A program made the position numbers and the translations under genes. Below the pieces are notes generated by a model that saw only the letters and a program-made list of their open reading frames with translations, searched no databases and was not told the origin of the DNA. Positions 17,712-27,836 of a stretch of 64,000 nucleotides of DNA are shown one piece after another. Each line of letters begins with the position of its first letter. Positions within the stretch are counted from its first letter, which is position 1. The stretch lies in assembly GCF_015354315.1 (NCBI RefSeq), contig NZ_JADKYY010000003.1:62001-126000 (forward strand). Reading direction: 5' to 3'. This stretch comes from Planobacterium oryzisoli (GTDB lineage Bacteria; Bacteroidota; Bacteroidia; Flavobacteriales; Weeksellaceae).

Positions 17712-17945
17712 TTAGTTAGCAGCGTCAGTTGCAACTTCAGCAGCATCTTCAGCTACAGTAGCAGCAGAATCAGCTACAGCAGCAGCAGAATCAGCTACAA
17801 CAGCAGCAGAATCAGCAACGATAGCAGTAGAATCAACTAGAACTTCAGTAGAATCAGTTGTAGCAGCAGCATCAACAGTTTCAGTTTTTTTACAAGCTAC
17901 AAGAGCAAGAGCAGCTACACCAGCTACGAATAAAGACTTTTTCAT
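17712..17945 (-). CDS. Small Ala-rich heptad-repeat lipoprotein
   Basis: The 77-residue product starts MKKSLFVAGVAALALVACKK, with lipobox LVAC and Cys18. After a short KKTETVDAAATTDST linker it is made of seven-residue units of the form (A/V)xADSAA (for example VADSAAVVADSAA), rich in Ala, Val, Asp and Ser. A period of seven with small hydrophobic residues suggests a coiled coil anchored in a membrane, comparable in layout to Braun's lipoprotein but without a C-terminal Lys. Together with the neighbour at 18046-18384 it forms a paralogous pair. The function is unknown. Confidence 0.75.
   Translation of the reverse strand: MKKSLFVAGVAALALVACKKTETVDAAATTDSTEVLVDSTAIVADSAAVVADSAAAVADSAATVAEDAAEVATDAAN
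17740..17865 (-). repeat. 21-bp coding minisatellite in the heptad lipoprotein gene
   Basis: Six consecutive 21-base units start at 17740, 17761, 17782, 17803, 17824 and 17845. The three central ones share GCAGCAGAATCAGC, and the 17761 and 17782 copies agree over 18 bases. Each unit encodes one heptad. The same unit appears twice in the neighbouring paralogue (18239 and 18260). Confidence 0.85.
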
Positions 17946-18045: not shown

Positions 18046-18384
18046 TTAATTTGCAGCGTCCTTCACCGCTTTCTTGGCATCCTTAGCAGCATCGGCAGCA
18101 GCATCAGCAGCACCTTTCGCAGCATCGGCCGCTCCTTCTGCAGCATCCTTAGCGATCTCTGCACCGGCAGCAGTAGTCGCTGCAGCAGCATCCTTAGCAG
18201 CATCCACAGTAGCAGTAGCAGCAGAATCGACAACTGCAGCAGCAGAATCTGCTACAACTGCAGCAGAATCAGAAAGCGCAATTGCAGTGGAATCTGCAGC
18301 GCTGGCTGTTTCAACAGTTTCCGTCTTTTTACAAGCTACTAATGTAAGGGCTGATACTCCGGCAATTAATAATACTTTTTTCAT
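18046..18384 (-). CDS. Ala-rich lipoprotein, paralogue of the 17712 gene, LEA-like tail
   Basis: The 112-residue product starts MKKVLLIAGVSALTLVACKK, with the same lipobox and KKTETVE linker as the 17712 gene. It shares the DSAAVVADSAAAV heptads over residues 38-56. Unlike the paralogue it then has a long tail of AKDAAEGAADAAKGAADAA type with many Lys, a composition like LEA proteins or other amphipathic stress-related helices. No catalytic motif is seen. Location outside the cytoplasm, tethered by lipid, is well supported; any role in envelope spacing or stress is speculation. Confidence 0.75.
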   Translation of the reverse strand: MKKVLLIAGVSALTLVACKKTETVETASAADSTAIALSDSAAVVADSAAAVVDSAATATVDAAKDAAAATTAAGAEIAKDAAEGAADAAKGAADAAADAAKDAKKAVKDAAN

Positions 18385-18460: not shown

Positions 18461-18468
18461 CAAAGGTA
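18461..18468 (-). promoter_or_regulatory. Predicted -7 element of the 18046 lipoprotein gene
   Basis: On the minus strand TACCTTTG fits TANNTTTG, 76 bases before the ATG. The -33 distance has no TTTG, so support is moderate. Confidence 0.4.
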
Positions 18469-18506
18469 GAAGCGAAGCGAAAATAGTCTCTGAAAATTGA
18501 TTGTAA

Positions 18507-18530
18507 TACCTTTGTAAAACAGTTTTACAA
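18507..18530 (+). promoter_or_regulatory. -7 element and perfect 19-bp palindrome before the 18534 gene
   Basis: TACCTTTG (18507-18514) fits the -7 consensus. Overlapping it, 18512-18530 is the perfect inverted repeat TTGTAAAACAGTTTTACAA (9 bp each side of one central base). The palindrome covers the -7 element and the predicted transcription start, the classical position of a repressor operator, and ends 3 bases before the TTG start codon. No intrinsic-terminator tail follows. Confidence 0.65.
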
Positions 18531-18533
18531 TTT

Positions 18534-19688
18534 TTGATATCTGAATATCAATTAATTAAACAAAACTATACCAATTTGACTGATTTGGATTTACTGCATT
18601 TCGAACAGCTAAAAAGCGAAATTCAGACAAAATATTTACAGACACATACCCCATCTAATGAGAATATTGCTCATTGGAAAGGCATAGATATAATATATTT
18701 TCAGGAAGACCTGCGAAAAATTGCCAAAGGAAATATAAGTGAGAAATCCTTTTACACCTACTTCAAGACTTCGCCAGTGACAAAACTGCCCCGGATCGAC
18801 ATTCTAAATTTATTGTCCCAGTATGCGGGGTACCAATCGTGGTTTGATTTTAAAAAGCAACATCTTTTTGCAAATGAAATCCTTGAAAACGACTTGGAGG
18901 ACGAGCAGCTCGAAAGTAAACTCGAAAACGATTTGCGCAGTGCTCCGGTCGAGGAGGAACTAATACCCGTTGCTCAAAAAAGTGATCCTACGCCAATAAA
19001 AACGGAAACGGATTTGACGCATGAGCCTACGCGCAGCACCGGTGTTGAGAGAAAAAGAATACCCTCCTACAGTATTCCTAAATACCTTATTTTAGTTGCG
19101 GCAGCCACGCTCACTTTTTTATTGGGACTCTTTATATTCCGGGACCAGCTTTTCAGTAAGGAGTATTATTACAATTTCATCGATTCGGATCGAAATTCGA
19201 AGATAAATGCGGAACTGCAAGTGCAAATATTAAAGGAAAACGAGTCGCCCATTCTCTATACTGCAAAGCCCAATGAACCCTTTGTATATAAGAATCCGAC
19301 CACCAAGACATTAACTATGGTGGTCTCCTCCCCCTACTACAGAACAGACACCATAAGAAGGAACCTTGAAACCGCACCCGAAAGCGAAATCATTGAGCTC
19401 AAGCCCAACGACTACGCTATTATGCTCTACTACTACTCCAATTCGTTGCAGGACATTAAGCGCAAGAGGGAAACCCTCAATTACCTTATTAGCAGTGACG
19501 CGTTAATATACCAAGTGTATGACAATGAAACCTACGGAATCGAAACACTGGACAAGCAGCGCTACATCACACTAGTGACTACTCCGACCACTTCACTTAA
19601 AAACCTGGAAGTGATCGACACGAAAATGGAAAATGGAAAAATTGTATTAATAAAATTTAGAATCTCACAAAATGAGCAGACTCCATAG
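18534..19688 (+). CDS. Single-pass membrane protein with HTH-like cytoplasmic domain
   Basis: 384 residues from a TTG start at 18534; no ATG lies in the first part of the frame and an in-frame stop lies at 18504. Residues 1-112 form a helical domain with a segment (ISEKSFYTYF, then ILNLLSQYAGYQSWFDF) similar in style to N-terminal helix-turn-helix-like modules common in Bacteroidota. Residues 113-178 are an acidic/Pro linker, 184-202 one membrane helix, and 203-384 a predominantly beta extracytoplasmic domain. The layout recalls ToxR/CadC-type membrane regulators, but no known DNA-binding family is recognised with confidence. The end overlaps the start of the next lipoprotein gene. Confidence 0.75.
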   Translation: MISEYQLIKQNYTNLTDLDLLHFEQLKSEIQTKYLQTHTPSNENIAHWKGIDIIYFQEDLRKIAKGNISEKSFYTYFKTSPVTKLPRIDILNLLSQYAGYQSWFDFKKQHLFANEILENDLEDEQLESKLENDLRSAPVEEELIPVAQKSDPTPIKTETDLTHEPTRSTGVERKRIPSYSIPKYLILVAAATLTFLLGLFIFRDQLFSKEYYYNFIDSDRNSKINAELQVQILKENESPILYTAKPNEPFVYKNPTTKTLTMVVSSPYYRTDTIRRNLETAPESEIIELKPNDYAIMLYYYSNSLQDIKRKRETLNYLISSDALIYQVYDNETYGIETLDKQRYITLVTTPTTSLKNLEVIDTKMENGKIVLIKFRISQNEQTP

Positions 19689-20253
19689 ACACGTCCTCGT
19701 TCTTTTAGTGACACTGGTACTGTTTTCTTGTCAGGAAAAACCGCAGGGCCCGGTGTCATTGGAACAGGTCAAATACAATAATAATAAGACGAGCTACCCC
19801 GACACCAAGATGGACAGCTTACAGGCTATCAATGCCATTACACGCCAGAAAGTCCAGGAAGTTATTGACCTCTCCATTCTGTACAGCTCCGGTAAAAAAG
19901 ACACTGAAATTGATTCTGCGATGTATACCCAGATCTTGGGTTATTTCCACGCACCGGACAGTTTAACGCTCCAGCCGTTACTTCAGGAACTGGAAGGGTT
20001 CAAAGTGCGCAGCGCAAAGGTCAATAACCTTCAGGTATACGAAGAGTATCATGAGCAGGATACCCTTAACTTTGCACGGTTCCAAGTGGATTATTTTGAC
20101 GCATCAAATAAGCCCATTGCGCGCAAACAAAGAGAAGCGCAGTATATTCTTGTATCCTCGCCCCAAAAATTCAAGAAACAGTTTCGTTTTTATTTCCTAA
20201 CCTTTTACAATCAGCCTATAAAAGACAGTATCTCGGAAGCGGTAACTAAATAA
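19672..20253 (+). CDS. Lipoprotein coupled to the membrane regulator-like gene
   Basis: The 193-residue product starts MSRLHRHVLVLLVTLVLFSC, a signal peptide with an LFSC lipobox. No known domain was recognised; the mature part is polar with several Tyr/Phe-rich strands (LNFARFQVDYFD, FKKQFRFYFLTFYNQ). The start lies 17 bases inside the previous gene, so the membrane protein and this lipoprotein are probably made together and may interact outside the cytoplasm. Its last 43 bases overlap the convergent cyclo-ligase gene. Confidence 0.75.
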   Translation: MSRLHRHVLVLLVTLVLFSCQEKPQGPVSLEQVKYNNNKTSYPDTKMDSLQAINAITRQKVQEVIDLSILYSSGKKDTEIDSAMYTQILGYFHAPDSLTLQPLLQELEGFKVRSAKVNNLQVYEEYHEQDTLNFARFQVDYFDASNKPIARKQREAQYILVSSPQKFKKQFRFYFLTFYNQPIKDSISEAVTK

Positions 20254-20777
20254 TGTAGGGGCACATCGTGCGGATGTACATCAGTAATAATTTCTAAAGG
20301 AGGAAAAAACCCTACGCCAATACGCAGTGAGCTCTCGTCCAGCGTACTAAAAAACGAGTCGTAGTATCCCTTACCGTATCCTACCCGGGCTCCACTGCTG
20401 TCGGCATATAGTAGCGGCGTGACAATGTAATCGTAATGGGCGCGCTTCACATCAGTATTGCTCTCTGGCTCCCTAATTCCAAAAACGCCTGCCGTAAGTT
20501 CCGTATCAGGCCTGAGCGCTACCGAAATCATTTTTCCATCAACGATTTTGGGTACAAACACATCAACCTTGTTCTTATGGCAATAATCTACAAGATACGC
20601 GGTATCCACCTCATTAAATTTGGAGCTGCTTAAAAACAGGTGCATGGAATCTCCTGGCCCTGGAGCGAAGTGGCTTATAATGCGCTCACAAATAGATTTA
20701 GAGAGCGCATCAATCTCCGTGCTGCTTAACTGCTTTCTCCTGTCCAGATAAATCGATCGAAGTTCCTTCTTGAGCAT
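20211..20777 (-). CDS. 5-formyltetrahydrofolate cyclo-ligase
   Basis: ATP-dependent conversion of 5-formyl-THF to 5,10-methenyl-THF. With the ATG at 20775-20777 (MLKKELRSIYLDRRKQL) the product has 188 residues. The family motif GARVGYGKGYYDSFF near residue 130 and the C-terminal PHDVPLHYLVTASE are present. The open frame could begin 12 codons earlier, but the chosen start matches homologues and overlaps the ferredoxin stop by one base (TAATG). The 3' end overlaps the convergent lipoprotein gene by 43 bases, and both reading frames look genuine there. Confidence 0.93.
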   Translation of the reverse strand: MLKKELRSIYLDRRKQLSSTEIDALSKSICERIISHFAPGPGDSMHLFLSSSKFNEVDTAYLVDYCHKNKVDVFVPKIVDGKMISVALRPDTELTAGVFGIREPESNTDVKRAHYDYIVTPLLYADSSGARVGYGKGYYDSFFSTLDESSLRIGVGFFPPLEIITDVHPHDVPLHYLVTASEILSFIG

Positions 20778-21007
20778 TACACCATTTTTACCGAGATTAT
20801 ATTTACAGGGCACGCTTTAGCTGCTTTTTCGCAGGGGTCAAAGGCGTCCTGAAGCGGCGTCTTAATAGTATGGAACCCCTTTTTCTCAATGGACCGCAGC
20901 AAAACGGATTTCCCGTCTTTCTTGGACATTCTGAAATATTCAGGAGCAAATTCGGCGCAATAGTTACAGCCAATACACTTTTCCCTCTGTAAGGTTACTA
21001 TTACCAT
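20777..21007 (-). CDS. Ferredoxin, [4Fe-4S] type
   Basis: Small electron carrier of 76 residues. Cysteines in KCIGCNYCAEFAP (CxxCxxC) and in ACPVNII supply a cluster, and the spacing fits a ferredoxin with a single 4Fe-4S cluster (fer4_13/15-like). It lies 9 bases after the U32 gene and overlaps the cyclo-ligase start, so the three are one operon. As the U32 protein carries its own Fe-S site, this ferredoxin may feed it electrons; that partnership is inferred from position only. Confidence 0.9.
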   Translation of the reverse strand: MVIVTLQREKCIGCNYCAEFAPEYFRMSKKDGKSVLLRSIEKKGFHTIKTPLQDAFDPCEKAAKACPVNIISVKMV

Positions 21008-24572: not shown

Positions 24573-25376
24573 ATGAAAAGTAAAACATCGATCATGCGTG
24601 CAATATGGAATGGTGCCATTGGTTTTGGCCTGGTAAATATCCCGGTAAAGTTGTATTCAGCGGTGGAACAGAGCAATCTGGACCTGGATATGCTGGATAA
24701 AAAAGACCTCTCCAACATTCAATTTAAGAGGGTTAACGCCACGACGGGCAAAGAGGTAAAGTGGGAGAACATTGTCAAGGGGTATAAACTGGAAGACGAA
24801 TACATTGTGCTCACCGACGAGGACTTCGAGGCAGTGAGTCCTGAGAAATCGAAAATCCTATCCATTACGCAGTTCGTGGACACCAGCGAGATAGACAGTG
24901 TATATTTTGAGACCTCCTATTTTTTGGAGCCGCAAAAGAACGGCGAACAGGCCTACCAGCTTCTTTTGCAGGCTCTACTTAAAACCAAGATGGCGGGCGT
25001 TGGTACTTTTATCTTAAGGGAAAAAGAAATCTTAGGTCTGGTGCGGCCCTACGATGAGAAGATCCTTATGGTTACCCGTATGCGCTACCCTGAGGAAATC
25101 CGCTCTTATGAAGACCTTAAAGTTCCTAAGGCAAAAAAAACAAAAGGAAAGGAACTCGAGATGGCAGAAAGCCTTATCAAACAATTGGCTTCGGAATTTG
25201 ATCCCGGCGAATTCACCAACACCTATAACGAAGAATTATTAGAGCTCATAAAAGCCAAAGCGAAGGGAACGCCGAAAAAAGCGCCTGAAGAGAAAGACGC
25301 TGAAGATGTGGATCCTACCGACCTTATGGCACAGCTAAAAGCAAGTTTAGAAGCTTCAAAAAAGAAAGCAGGGTAA
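24573..25376 (+). CDS. ku: Ku protein of bacterial non-homologous end joining
   Basis: Homodimeric ring that binds double-strand DNA ends and recruits LigD. The 267-residue product has the family start RAIWNGAIGFGLVNIPVKLYSA, the core beta-barrel with YFLEPQKNGEQAYQLL, and a Lys/Glu-rich C-terminal tail after residue 205. A second possible start is the ATG at 24594 (MRAIWNG), seven codons in. It is separated by 6 bases from ligD, so the pair is one operon. Confidence 0.95.
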   Translation: MKSKTSIMRAIWNGAIGFGLVNIPVKLYSAVEQSNLDLDMLDKKDLSNIQFKRVNATTGKEVKWENIVKGYKLEDEYIVLTDEDFEAVSPEKSKILSITQFVDTSEIDSVYFETSYFLEPQKNGEQAYQLLLQALLKTKMAGVGTFILREKEILGLVRPYDEKILMVTRMRYPEEIRSYEDLKVPKAKKTKGKELEMAESLIKQLASEFDPGEFTNTYNEELLELIKAKAKGTPKKAPEEKDAEDVDPTDLMAQLKASLEASKKKAG

Positions 25377-25382
25377 TTACTA

Positions 25383-27836
25383 ATGAGCGGTCCTCTTTCC
25401 AAATACCACGATAAACGGAACTTCGACTCCACCCCGGAGCCCAAAGGCAGTATTGAGAAAAGTGGCAAGCACTTGCGGTTTGTTGTACAACGCCATAAGG
25501 CCTCGCGTCTCCACTACGATCTACGATTAGAAGCCGGGGGCGTTCTAATGAGCTGGGCTGTACCAAAAGGCCCCTCTCTGGATCCTTCCGATAAGCGCCT
25601 TGCCATAAGAACTGAAGACCATCCTATTCAGTACCTTAGCTTTGAAGGCAAAATCCCTAAAGGCAATTACGGAGCAGGAGAAATGGACATCTGGGACGCG
25701 GGAACCTACCGTCTTATAGAGCCTAATGAAAATGTTCTTGCAGAGGATCAAATTAAGGCAGAAATCGATTCCGGATCGTTAAAATTCGTGTTGGAAGGAG
25801 CGAAACTGAAAGGAGAATTTGCACTGGTCCGTCTGAAGGACCCCAAACAAGATAATGCATGGTTACTGATTAAGCACAAGGATGCACATGCGGTAACGCC
25901 CTATGATAGTGAGGACCATTTGTCCAAACCTTCCCAGGCTCCATTGCAAAAAACCAAAAGCAATACTAAAAATGAATCCCTTACAGACGAGAACGCACCG
26001 GGCACATTTAAACCGATGCTGGCAGAAGTTAAAAAAGATGCATTTTCACACTCGGACTGGGCATTTGAAATTAAATGGGATGGATACCGCGCCATTGCAG
26101 ACTTGCGGGGCGAGCCTATAATAACTTCAAGAAACGGACATTCTCTAAACCAGAAGTATCCCAAGCTTCTAAGCGCCCTGTCTTCACAGACCCACACGAT
26201 GGTCCTTGACGGAGAAATAATAGCCTATAATAAGGATGGCCTCCCGGATTTTGGAATTTTGCAAAGCGTGGAACAGGACACAAAGCACTCGGTCTACTAT
26301 CAGGTCTTTGATCTGTTGTACCTAAACGGTCATTCCACCCTAAATCTAAGTTACCTGCAACGCAAGGAGCTTCTAAAAGATGCTCTGGACGCGCACCCGC
26401 TCATACAGTACCACGACCACGTGCTTGAAAAAGGAAAGGAATTTTTCTCCCTAGCAAAACAAAAAAACCTAGAAGGAATTATTGCCAAACATACCGATAG
26501 TCTGTACAGCCCAGGACAGAGAACCGGTCAGTGGCTAAAGATTAAAACCAACGAGACCACCGACGTGTATATTTTGGGTTATACTAAGCCCGGAGCAGGC
26601 AGACAGCATTTTGGCTCTTTACTCATTGGGCAGTTTCGAGAAGGTACTATGGAATTTATGGGTCATGTAGGTACGGGGTTTTCCAGTAGCCAGCAGAAGG
26701 ATTTGAAAGAAAAAATGGAGGCATTGGCACAAAACGAGCCGCCGGTGGATCCCGCTCCTAAAACCAATGGTACCCCGGTGTGGATTAAACCCAAGCTCCT
26801 GGCAGAAATCAAATATACGGAACGAACCAAAGACAATAAATTCCGGCACCCTGTATTTATTAGAATAAGGGAAGAGTTTGATACATTGCATAGGGGGGAG
26901 GTAAAACAAAAAAAGAGAGTTCCTCTACCAAAAGGAATTAAGATCACCAATCCGTCAAAAGTATACTTTCCAGAGAAAGCAGTAACCAAAAGCGATCTGA
27001 TCGCATTTTACCAGAGTATATCAAGTTATATTCTACCGCATCTAGTTCAGCGTCCCCAGTCGCTTAACCGCTATCCGAACGGCATAAACGGGCTGAACTT
27101 TTACCAGAAAGACACTGCGGATTTCGCGCCCCCCTGGATGGAGACCGCACGGTTTTATTCCGAGTCTGCGGAAAAGGAAATTGAATATATTCTTTGCAAT
27201 AACATCAAAACTATGGCCTATTTAAATAATTTAGGCTGTATTGACTTCAATGTGTGGACTTCTAAATTAGAGACCATCGATAACCCCGATTATCTGGTGT
27301 TGGATCTGGATCCTTCTGAAGGAAACAGCTTTCAGGACGTAATTGAAACGGCCCTAGCCGTAAAAGAGATCCTGGATCTGGGAGAAATCCAAGGATACTG
27401 CAAGACCTCCGGCAGTAGCGGAATTCATATATATATCCCTATGGGCGCTGAGTACAATTTTGATCATGTACGCCATTTTGCCCATGTGCTAATGAAGATG
27501 GTTCAAAAGAAACTTCCCACGCTGACTACTCTGCAAAGAAGCTTAAGTAAGCGGGATAGAAACAAGATCTATCTCGACTATCTGCAGAACAGAAAAGGAC
27601 AAACGCTTTCGAGCGTCTACAGCGTGCGGCCTAATGCCCATGCAAGTGTATCGATGCCTGTGGACTGGCAGGAGCTGACTGGGGAATTAAGGCCGCAGGA
27701 TTTCACCATTGAAAATGCTAAGGAAAGGATTGAGAAAAGAGGGGATATCTTCCTTCCTGTTCTCTCCCAATCTACGGATATATTAGTGGCTTTGGAGAAA
27801 CTATCAGGTAACGGGAACACTCCAGAAAATAAATAG
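25383..27836 (+). CDS. ligD: Multifunctional DNA ligase LigD (PE-LIG-POL order)
   Basis: The 817-residue product joins three activities. Residues 1-170 form the 3'-phosphoesterase with metal-site residues His38, His44, Asp46 (RLHYDLR) and His80. Residues about 205-510 form the ATP-dependent ligase with nucleotidylated Lys231 in FEIKWDGYRA. Residues about 530-810 form the primase-polymerase domain with the acidic LVLDLDPSEG motif and KTSGSSGIHIYIPM. The order PE-LIG-POL occurs in Bacteroidota and differs from mycobacterial POL-PE-LIG. Together with Ku it forms a complete two-gene end-joining system. Confidence 0.96.
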   Translation: MSGPLSKYHDKRNFDSTPEPKGSIEKSGKHLRFVVQRHKASRLHYDLRLEAGGVLMSWAVPKGPSLDPSDKRLAIRTEDHPIQYLSFEGKIPKGNYGAGEMDIWDAGTYRLIEPNENVLAEDQIKAEIDSGSLKFVLEGAKLKGEFALVRLKDPKQDNAWLLIKHKDAHAVTPYDSEDHLSKPSQAPLQKTKSNTKNESLTDENAPGTFKPMLAEVKKDAFSHSDWAFEIKWDGYRAIADLRGEPIITSRNGHSLNQKYPKLLSALSSQTHTMVLDGEIIAYNKDGLPDFGILQSVEQDTKHSVYYQVFDLLYLNGHSTLNLSYLQRKELLKDALDAHPLIQYHDHVLEKGKEFFSLAKQKNLEGIIAKHTDSLYSPGQRTGQWLKIKTNETTDVYILGYTKPGAGRQHFGSLLIGQFREGTMEFMGHVGTGFSSSQQKDLKEKMEALAQNEPPVDPAPKTNGTPVWIKPKLLAEIKYTERTKDNKFRHPVFIRIREEFDTLHRGEVKQKKRVPLPKGIKITNPSKVYFPEKAVTKSDLIAFYQSISSYILPHLVQRPQSLNRYPNGINGLNFYQKDTADFAPPWMETARFYSESAEKEIEYILCNNIKTMAYLNNLGCIDFNVWTSKLETIDNPDYLVLDLDPSEGNSFQDVIETALAVKEILDLGEIQGYCKTSGSSGIHIYIPMGAEYNFDHVRHFAHVLMKMVQKKLPTLTTLQRSLSKRDRNKIYLDYLQNRKGQTLSSVYSVRPNAHASVSMPVDWQELTGELRPQDFTIENAKERIEKRGDIFLPVLSQSTDILVALEKLSGNGNTPENK

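Follow-up and report, generated by a model that had tools for sequence, protein, structure and literature searches.

In the window, the stretch of 64,000 nucleotides of Planobacterium oryzisoli DNA analyzed here, two overlapping genes, termed A and B, are found downstream of a palindromic sequence and opposite to a divergently oriented lipoprotein gene. The features of the locus are as follows, with the basis of each assignment in parentheses.

17712..17945, minus strand: second Ala/Asp/Ser-rich lipoprotein gene, 77 aa, possible regulon member (open reading frame, beside the first lipoprotein gene)
18046..18384, minus strand: divergent Ala/Asp/Ser-rich lipoprotein gene, 112 aa, probable target (open reading frame, composition)
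18461..18468, minus strand: -7 box TACCTTTG of the divergent lipoprotein promoter (box-operator spacing)
18501..18507, plus strand: third half-site TTGTAAT, direct repeat 11 bp upstream of the next half-site (kept in 76 aligned intergenic regions)
18507..18514, plus strand: -7 box TACCTTTG of the A-B promoter, overlapping the operator (sequence, present in most loci)
18512..18530, no strand assigned: palindromic operator TTGTAAA-N5-TTTACAA, TTGTAAAACAGTTTTACAA, putative binding site (unique match, conserved position)
18576..19688, plus strand: gene A, predicted membrane-tethered regulator, 370 aa (orthologs, conserved TTG start)
18576..18863, plus strand: A residues 1-96, cytoplasmic helical domain, probable DNA-binding domain (AF2 model, alignment)
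18864..19082, plus strand: A residues 97-169, acidic variable linker (composition, alignment, low pLDDT)
19083..19139, plus strand: A residues 170-188, single membrane helix with KRK on its N-terminal side (hydropathy, AF2 helix 169-187)
19152..19427, plus strand: A residues 193-284, ectodomain part 1, predicted transthyretin/carboxypeptidase-regulatory-like beta sandwich (pLDDT about 80-85)
19428..19685, plus strand: A residues 285-370, ectodomain part 2, alpha/beta, fold uncertain (alignment, low-confidence model)
19672..20253, plus strand: gene B, lipoprotein with predicted NTF2-like domain (ATG start at 19672)

The original prediction, which had been made from this sequence, placed the start of A at the TTG at 18534. 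The frame is open from there, but sequence homology between the 57 orthologs sets in at the TTG at 18576 and in-frame stops are located upstream of this position in several orthologs, so that the latter was taken as the true start. A TTG was found at this position in 49 of the 57 orthologs from Weeksellaceae loci and also in 18 of 22 Flavobacteriaceae orthologs. Conservation of this codon suggests that low synthesis of A matters. The two open reading frames and their overlap of 17 bp (19672-19688) are real, as described before. Named genomes among the relatives, of Chryseobacterium, Kaistella and Amniculibacterium, assign this genome to the Weeksellaceae. Gene A was present in 33 of the 36 Weeksellaceae genomes searched, B likewise in 33, always side by side. 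At the level of loci, a few of which represent the same genome taken twice, A and B were adjacent in 57 of 57 Weeksellaceae cases, with an overlap of 8-23 bp in 56 of them. Among 299 Flavobacteriaceae genomes 22 carried A. A small lipoprotein gene followed in all 22, overlapping A by 4 bp in 19 loci. In a profile comparison its product proved homologous to B (probability 96.4%, E 1.2e-9), with weak conservation. B was not found apart from A in any of the genomes searched. A complete lack of linkage in other genomes, named before as an outcome that would refute the original reading, was not observed; the two genes are strongly linked (57/57 and 22/22 loci). The conserved gene order comprises rmuC, a TrmH-type methyltransferase gene, small lipoprotein genes, A-B, a 5-formyltetrahydrofolate cyclo-ligase gene and a gene for a U32 peptidase. 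Here, the cyclo-ligase-like gene (20211-20813, minus strand) converges on B with slight overlap, and such an end-to-end overlap recurs in many loci.

Neither A nor B was assigned to a family by Pfam, NCBIfam or PADLOC, and PDB sequence searches yielded nothing of use. Residues 1-96 are the best-conserved region of A in the ortholog alignment. Helices were modelled at residues 37-50, 56-65, 73-83 and 89-96 (AF2, pLDDT about 63-81), and no strands. In a comparison with HTH_3 (PF01381) domains of the same bacterial family, the domain aligned in register over residues 43-85, albeit weakly (hhalign E 0.0048, probability 7.4%). In a fold search with the A model, the matches were filled by the beta domain of the ectodomain, not by the N-terminal domain. 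A DNA-binding role of the domain is probable, while its fold is tentative, as judged from a medium-confidence model and the weak XRE alignment (probability 7%). The domain is of a type seen in Bacteroidota, with no more than a weak resemblance to XRE. Weak relatives of it were observed across Bacteroidota at the N-termini of large proteins resembling NTPases and of other membrane proteins with one helix (L224, L229, L233, L225-L228, L230). Some of these gave NACHT-like NTPase matches below the curated cut-off, and a membrane helix is present in some others. No Pfam model matched the domain.

The acidic linker of A that had been noted before was recovered, with 17 D/E versus 8 K/R. The membrane helix previously given as residues 184-202 corresponds to residues 170-188 after correction of the start, and the best 19-residue hydropathy window starts at 170. 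Hydropathy and model predict a topology with this single membrane helix and a periplasmic C-terminal domain. Ectodomain part 1 resembles 5aq0 (Z 9.2, 80 residues, rmsd 2.4 A; VIA) and the SusC NTE domain 9hfj (Z 8.4; VIA). In part 2, residues Y330, P337 and F361 are conserved. For B, the assignment as lipoprotein held: it has a signal peptide with lipobox, of which Cys20 is invariant in 42 orthologs. Behind the lipobox an NTF2-like domain was modelled at residues about 46-187 (AF2 mean pLDDT 76.6). The model resembles many NTF2-like chains (Z 8.5-10.9, rmsd 3-5 A; VIA), with an E of 0.01 at best in Foldseek; no Pfam model, including NTF2-like ones, matched B. Homology of the ectodomain parts of A to B was not supported (profile probability about 4%).

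The palindrome reported before at 18512-18530 is real and is the only match of TTGTAAA-N4..6-TTTACAA in the 2.1-Mb genome. It was found at the same place before A in 55 of the 57 Weeksellaceae ortholog loci. Together with the adjacency of A and B in all 57 loci, the unique match and the conserved position show that palindrome and gene pairing are beyond chance. The palindrome forms the center of an operator of three half-sites (TTGTAAt, TTGTAAA, TTTACAA). Flavobacterial -7 boxes (TAnnTTTG) are located at -12 to -5 (PMC9723704). Using this position, transcription of A is predicted to start from its box at 18507-18514 at about 18519, inside the palindrome. The divergent lipoprotein gene has a predicted transcription start at about 18456, which places the operator center at about -65. 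A second conserved element was observed in the 5' leader of A at 18542-18550 (TGAATATCA) and 18555-18558, with the consensus TGAtAATCAA followed by TTAA in most loci; it may serve as an additional binding site or in translation.

Comparable divergent lipoprotein genes were found at nearly all ortholog loci. In all 55 Weeksellaceae loci with the palindrome, the distance from the operator center to the divergent -7 box was 52-54 bp, a constancy which could partly reflect common descent of one short intergenic region. The composite pattern of operator plus box was detected in 161 of 197 Weeksellaceae genomes, as a rule with one or two occurrences per genome, and the reversed pattern used as control gave no match in any of the 197. 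It was present in 30 of 33 genomes with A and in 0 of 3 without A (Fisher P about 0.003); the genomes with A yet without the exact pattern were G003, G022 and G028. In Flavobacteriaceae, the divergent gene encodes a DUF4349 lipoprotein in 20 and a YfbK/vWA protein in 2 of the 22 loci. The palindrome is present in 12 of these; the remaining 10 have half-sites without the full palindrome, and some Flavobacteriaceae half-sites are arranged in tandem at 11-bp steps. A spacing of 51.5-52 bp was found for 9 of the 12 palindrome loci (10 of 13 values in the histogram). As operator and spacing are kept while the divergent gene differs between the families, the site follows A and the target changes. 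The palindrome had been placed correctly at the promoter of A in the original prediction, which missed its fixed-spacing role at the promoter of the divergent lipoprotein gene, the probable target.

Sites were also observed away from A. The composite pattern precedes an Ala-rich lipoprotein gene far from A in one genome (G012) and a DUF4349 lipoprotein gene in another (G017). In several genera, additional sites close to A are followed by further Ala-rich lipoprotein genes, paralogs with their own operator. No exact operator was found upstream of the second lipoprotein gene of the window (17712-17945, minus strand). Composite matches at the level of the order in G232, G569, G051 and G041 appeared chance-like, with neither A nor a lipoprotein gene beside them, and were rejected.

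From the sequence data we consider it quite likely that A is a membrane-tethered transcription factor, which represses itself and activates the divergent gene, with B as its periplasmic partner. The pair most likely constitutes a family-wide membrane-spanning gene switch, which would sense envelope conditions and, through one very strictly conserved site in the DNA, raise expression of the neighboring surface-lipoprotein gene and lower that of A and B. The cytoplasmic N-terminal domain of A would bind the TTGTAAA half-sites in the intergenic region; a factor other than A could bind the operator. Bound A would repress the A-B operon, since the operator covers the -7 box and the transcription start of A. 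By its position, bound A would most likely activate the divergent lipoprotein gene, as the operator at about -65, a half-site at about -48 and a spacing fixed across two families represent an activator position. The ectodomain of A and the NTF2-like B may form a periplasmic sensing unit, which would adjust the activity of A to the condition of the envelope or its lipoproteins. The regulator would be kept scarce by its conserved TTG start and by an operator that overlaps its own promoter. The membrane-spanning regulator, the lipoprotein partner and the promoter palindrome of the original reading are retained here; its assignment to the ToxR/CadC type is not, and as a whole it was largely correct but too narrow.

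One possible signal is the load of glycosylated lipoproteins. D-S/T-x motifs fit the consensus for O-glycosylation in Bacteroidota (PMC12871550). The lipoprotein encoded at 18046-18384 has four D-S-(A/T) motifs, and the target lipoproteins of this locus have four and five D-S/T-x motifs. A bolder version, which we regard as speculative and improbable, would make A-B a homeostatic sensor of the load of outer-membrane (O-glycosylated) lipoproteins. The divergent or DUF4349 lipoprotein would be both output and reporter read by B, and the domain of A would found a Bacteroidota-specific class of membrane-tethered regulators.

Four other explanations were weighed. B might be an envelope protein in its own right that only shares a transcript with A, which is compatible with the main reading of A. 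We find this doubtful. In its favor, contact between A and B is hypothetical and B is weakly conserved in Flavobacteriaceae; against it, B never occurs apart from A in the genomes searched and the reading frames overlap throughout. Somewhat less probable still is repression by A of the two divergent promoters alike, to be lifted by a signal that arrives through B. Repression is common among membrane-bound and divergently encoded regulators, and the operator overlaps the A promoter. At the lipoprotein gene, however, the operator lies about 65 bp upstream of the transcription start, outside the core promoter, and a spacing of 52-54 bp across families fits contact with the polymerase better than a steric block.

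RodZ combines a helix-turn-helix domain, one membrane helix and a beta domain, and A has its parts in the same order. A could accordingly be a RodZ-like structural protein that binds cytoplasmic proteins instead of DNA, the operator belonging to another factor. This is improbable, because A has no Pfam match to RodZ models, the operator tracks A and not the divergent gene between families, and it is missing where A is missing, with few other loci marked. Very improbable is that the palindrome acts at the RNA level, as a hairpin or attenuator within the leader of A, despite an inverted repeat near the gene start and the second conserved element TGANNATCA in the leader, since the spacing to the opposite-strand promoter is conserved, the palindrome arms are A/T-rich and weak, and the predicted start inside the palindrome leaves the 5' arm untranscribed.

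If A is the membrane-tethered transcription factor that we favor, several known systems invite comparison. ToxR/ToxS and CadC likewise have a cytoplasmic N-terminal regulator domain, a linker, one membrane helix and a periplasmic sensing domain, and in ToxRS an accessory gene directly follows. Their DNA-binding domain is an OmpR-type winged helix, in contrast to the domain of A, modelled as helices only, and the partner is here a lipoprotein with an NTF2-like model. The style of ToxR/CadC proposed before was not supported: PF00486 had no Pfam match in 42 A orthologs, hhalign against 31 local PF00486 domains revealed no similarity (P 0.34, probability 0.2%), and strands are lacking in the N-terminal model. 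A was therefore not filed under ToxR/CadC, as the defining domain is missing, though it would work alike. Membership in RodZ was rejected as well, HTH_25 and DUF4115 being without match (E up to 10 for A; families listed for 42 orthologs); A differs from RodZ further by its conserved operator and its lipoprotein partner. FecR-type anti-sigma factors of Bacteroidota share one membrane helix and a periplasmic sensing domain with A. No FecR domain match and, among the conserved neighbors of A, no sigma factor gene were found, and this assignment was dropped. The lipoproteins RcsF and NlpE report the state of the envelope to an inner-membrane regulator and act on phosphorelays, whereas in the present system the probable DNA-binding domain is part of the regulator. 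HigX of Caulobacter is a membrane-bound transcription factor at envelope-gene promoters (PMC13384398). It resembles A, whose binding is inferred, as a membrane-bound regulator of envelope genes but has a LytTR domain, four membrane helices and no periplasmic domain (PMC13384398).

In the open-access literature we found no description of this pair, of its site or of DUF4349 in Bacteroidota. Envelope signaling in this phylum has so far mostly been attributed to sigma/anti-sigma pairs and hybrid two-component systems. If our reading is true, A-B would represent a further route, both widespread and genetically simple, in which a regulator with a lipoprotein partner acts at fixed promoter geometry on an operator conserved to the base pair. 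A is kept in nearly every genus of Weeksellaceae, the family of Chryseobacterium, Elizabethkingia and Riemerella. The locus would also provide a first testable context for the DUF4349, YfbK-type and Ala/Asp/Ser-rich lipoproteins, for which no function in these bacteria was found in the literature.

A second, divergent type of A-B pair was observed in L101 (4591-6082), L102 (4672-6085), L104 (4105-5540) and L103 (4862-5758). In L101 and L104 the pair is oriented divergently from a SIMPL (DUF541)-type gene, and the sequence of L102 indicates the same arrangement. TTTTACAG-like repeats are located between the pair and the SIMPL gene in L101 and L104. The exact operator was not found at L101, L102 and L104, which have related half-sites only. 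Elsewhere in the window (24573-27836, plus strand), reading of the translations alone indicated adjacent genes for a Ku-like protein and a multidomain LigD-type DNA ligase-like protein, as in bacterial end joining.
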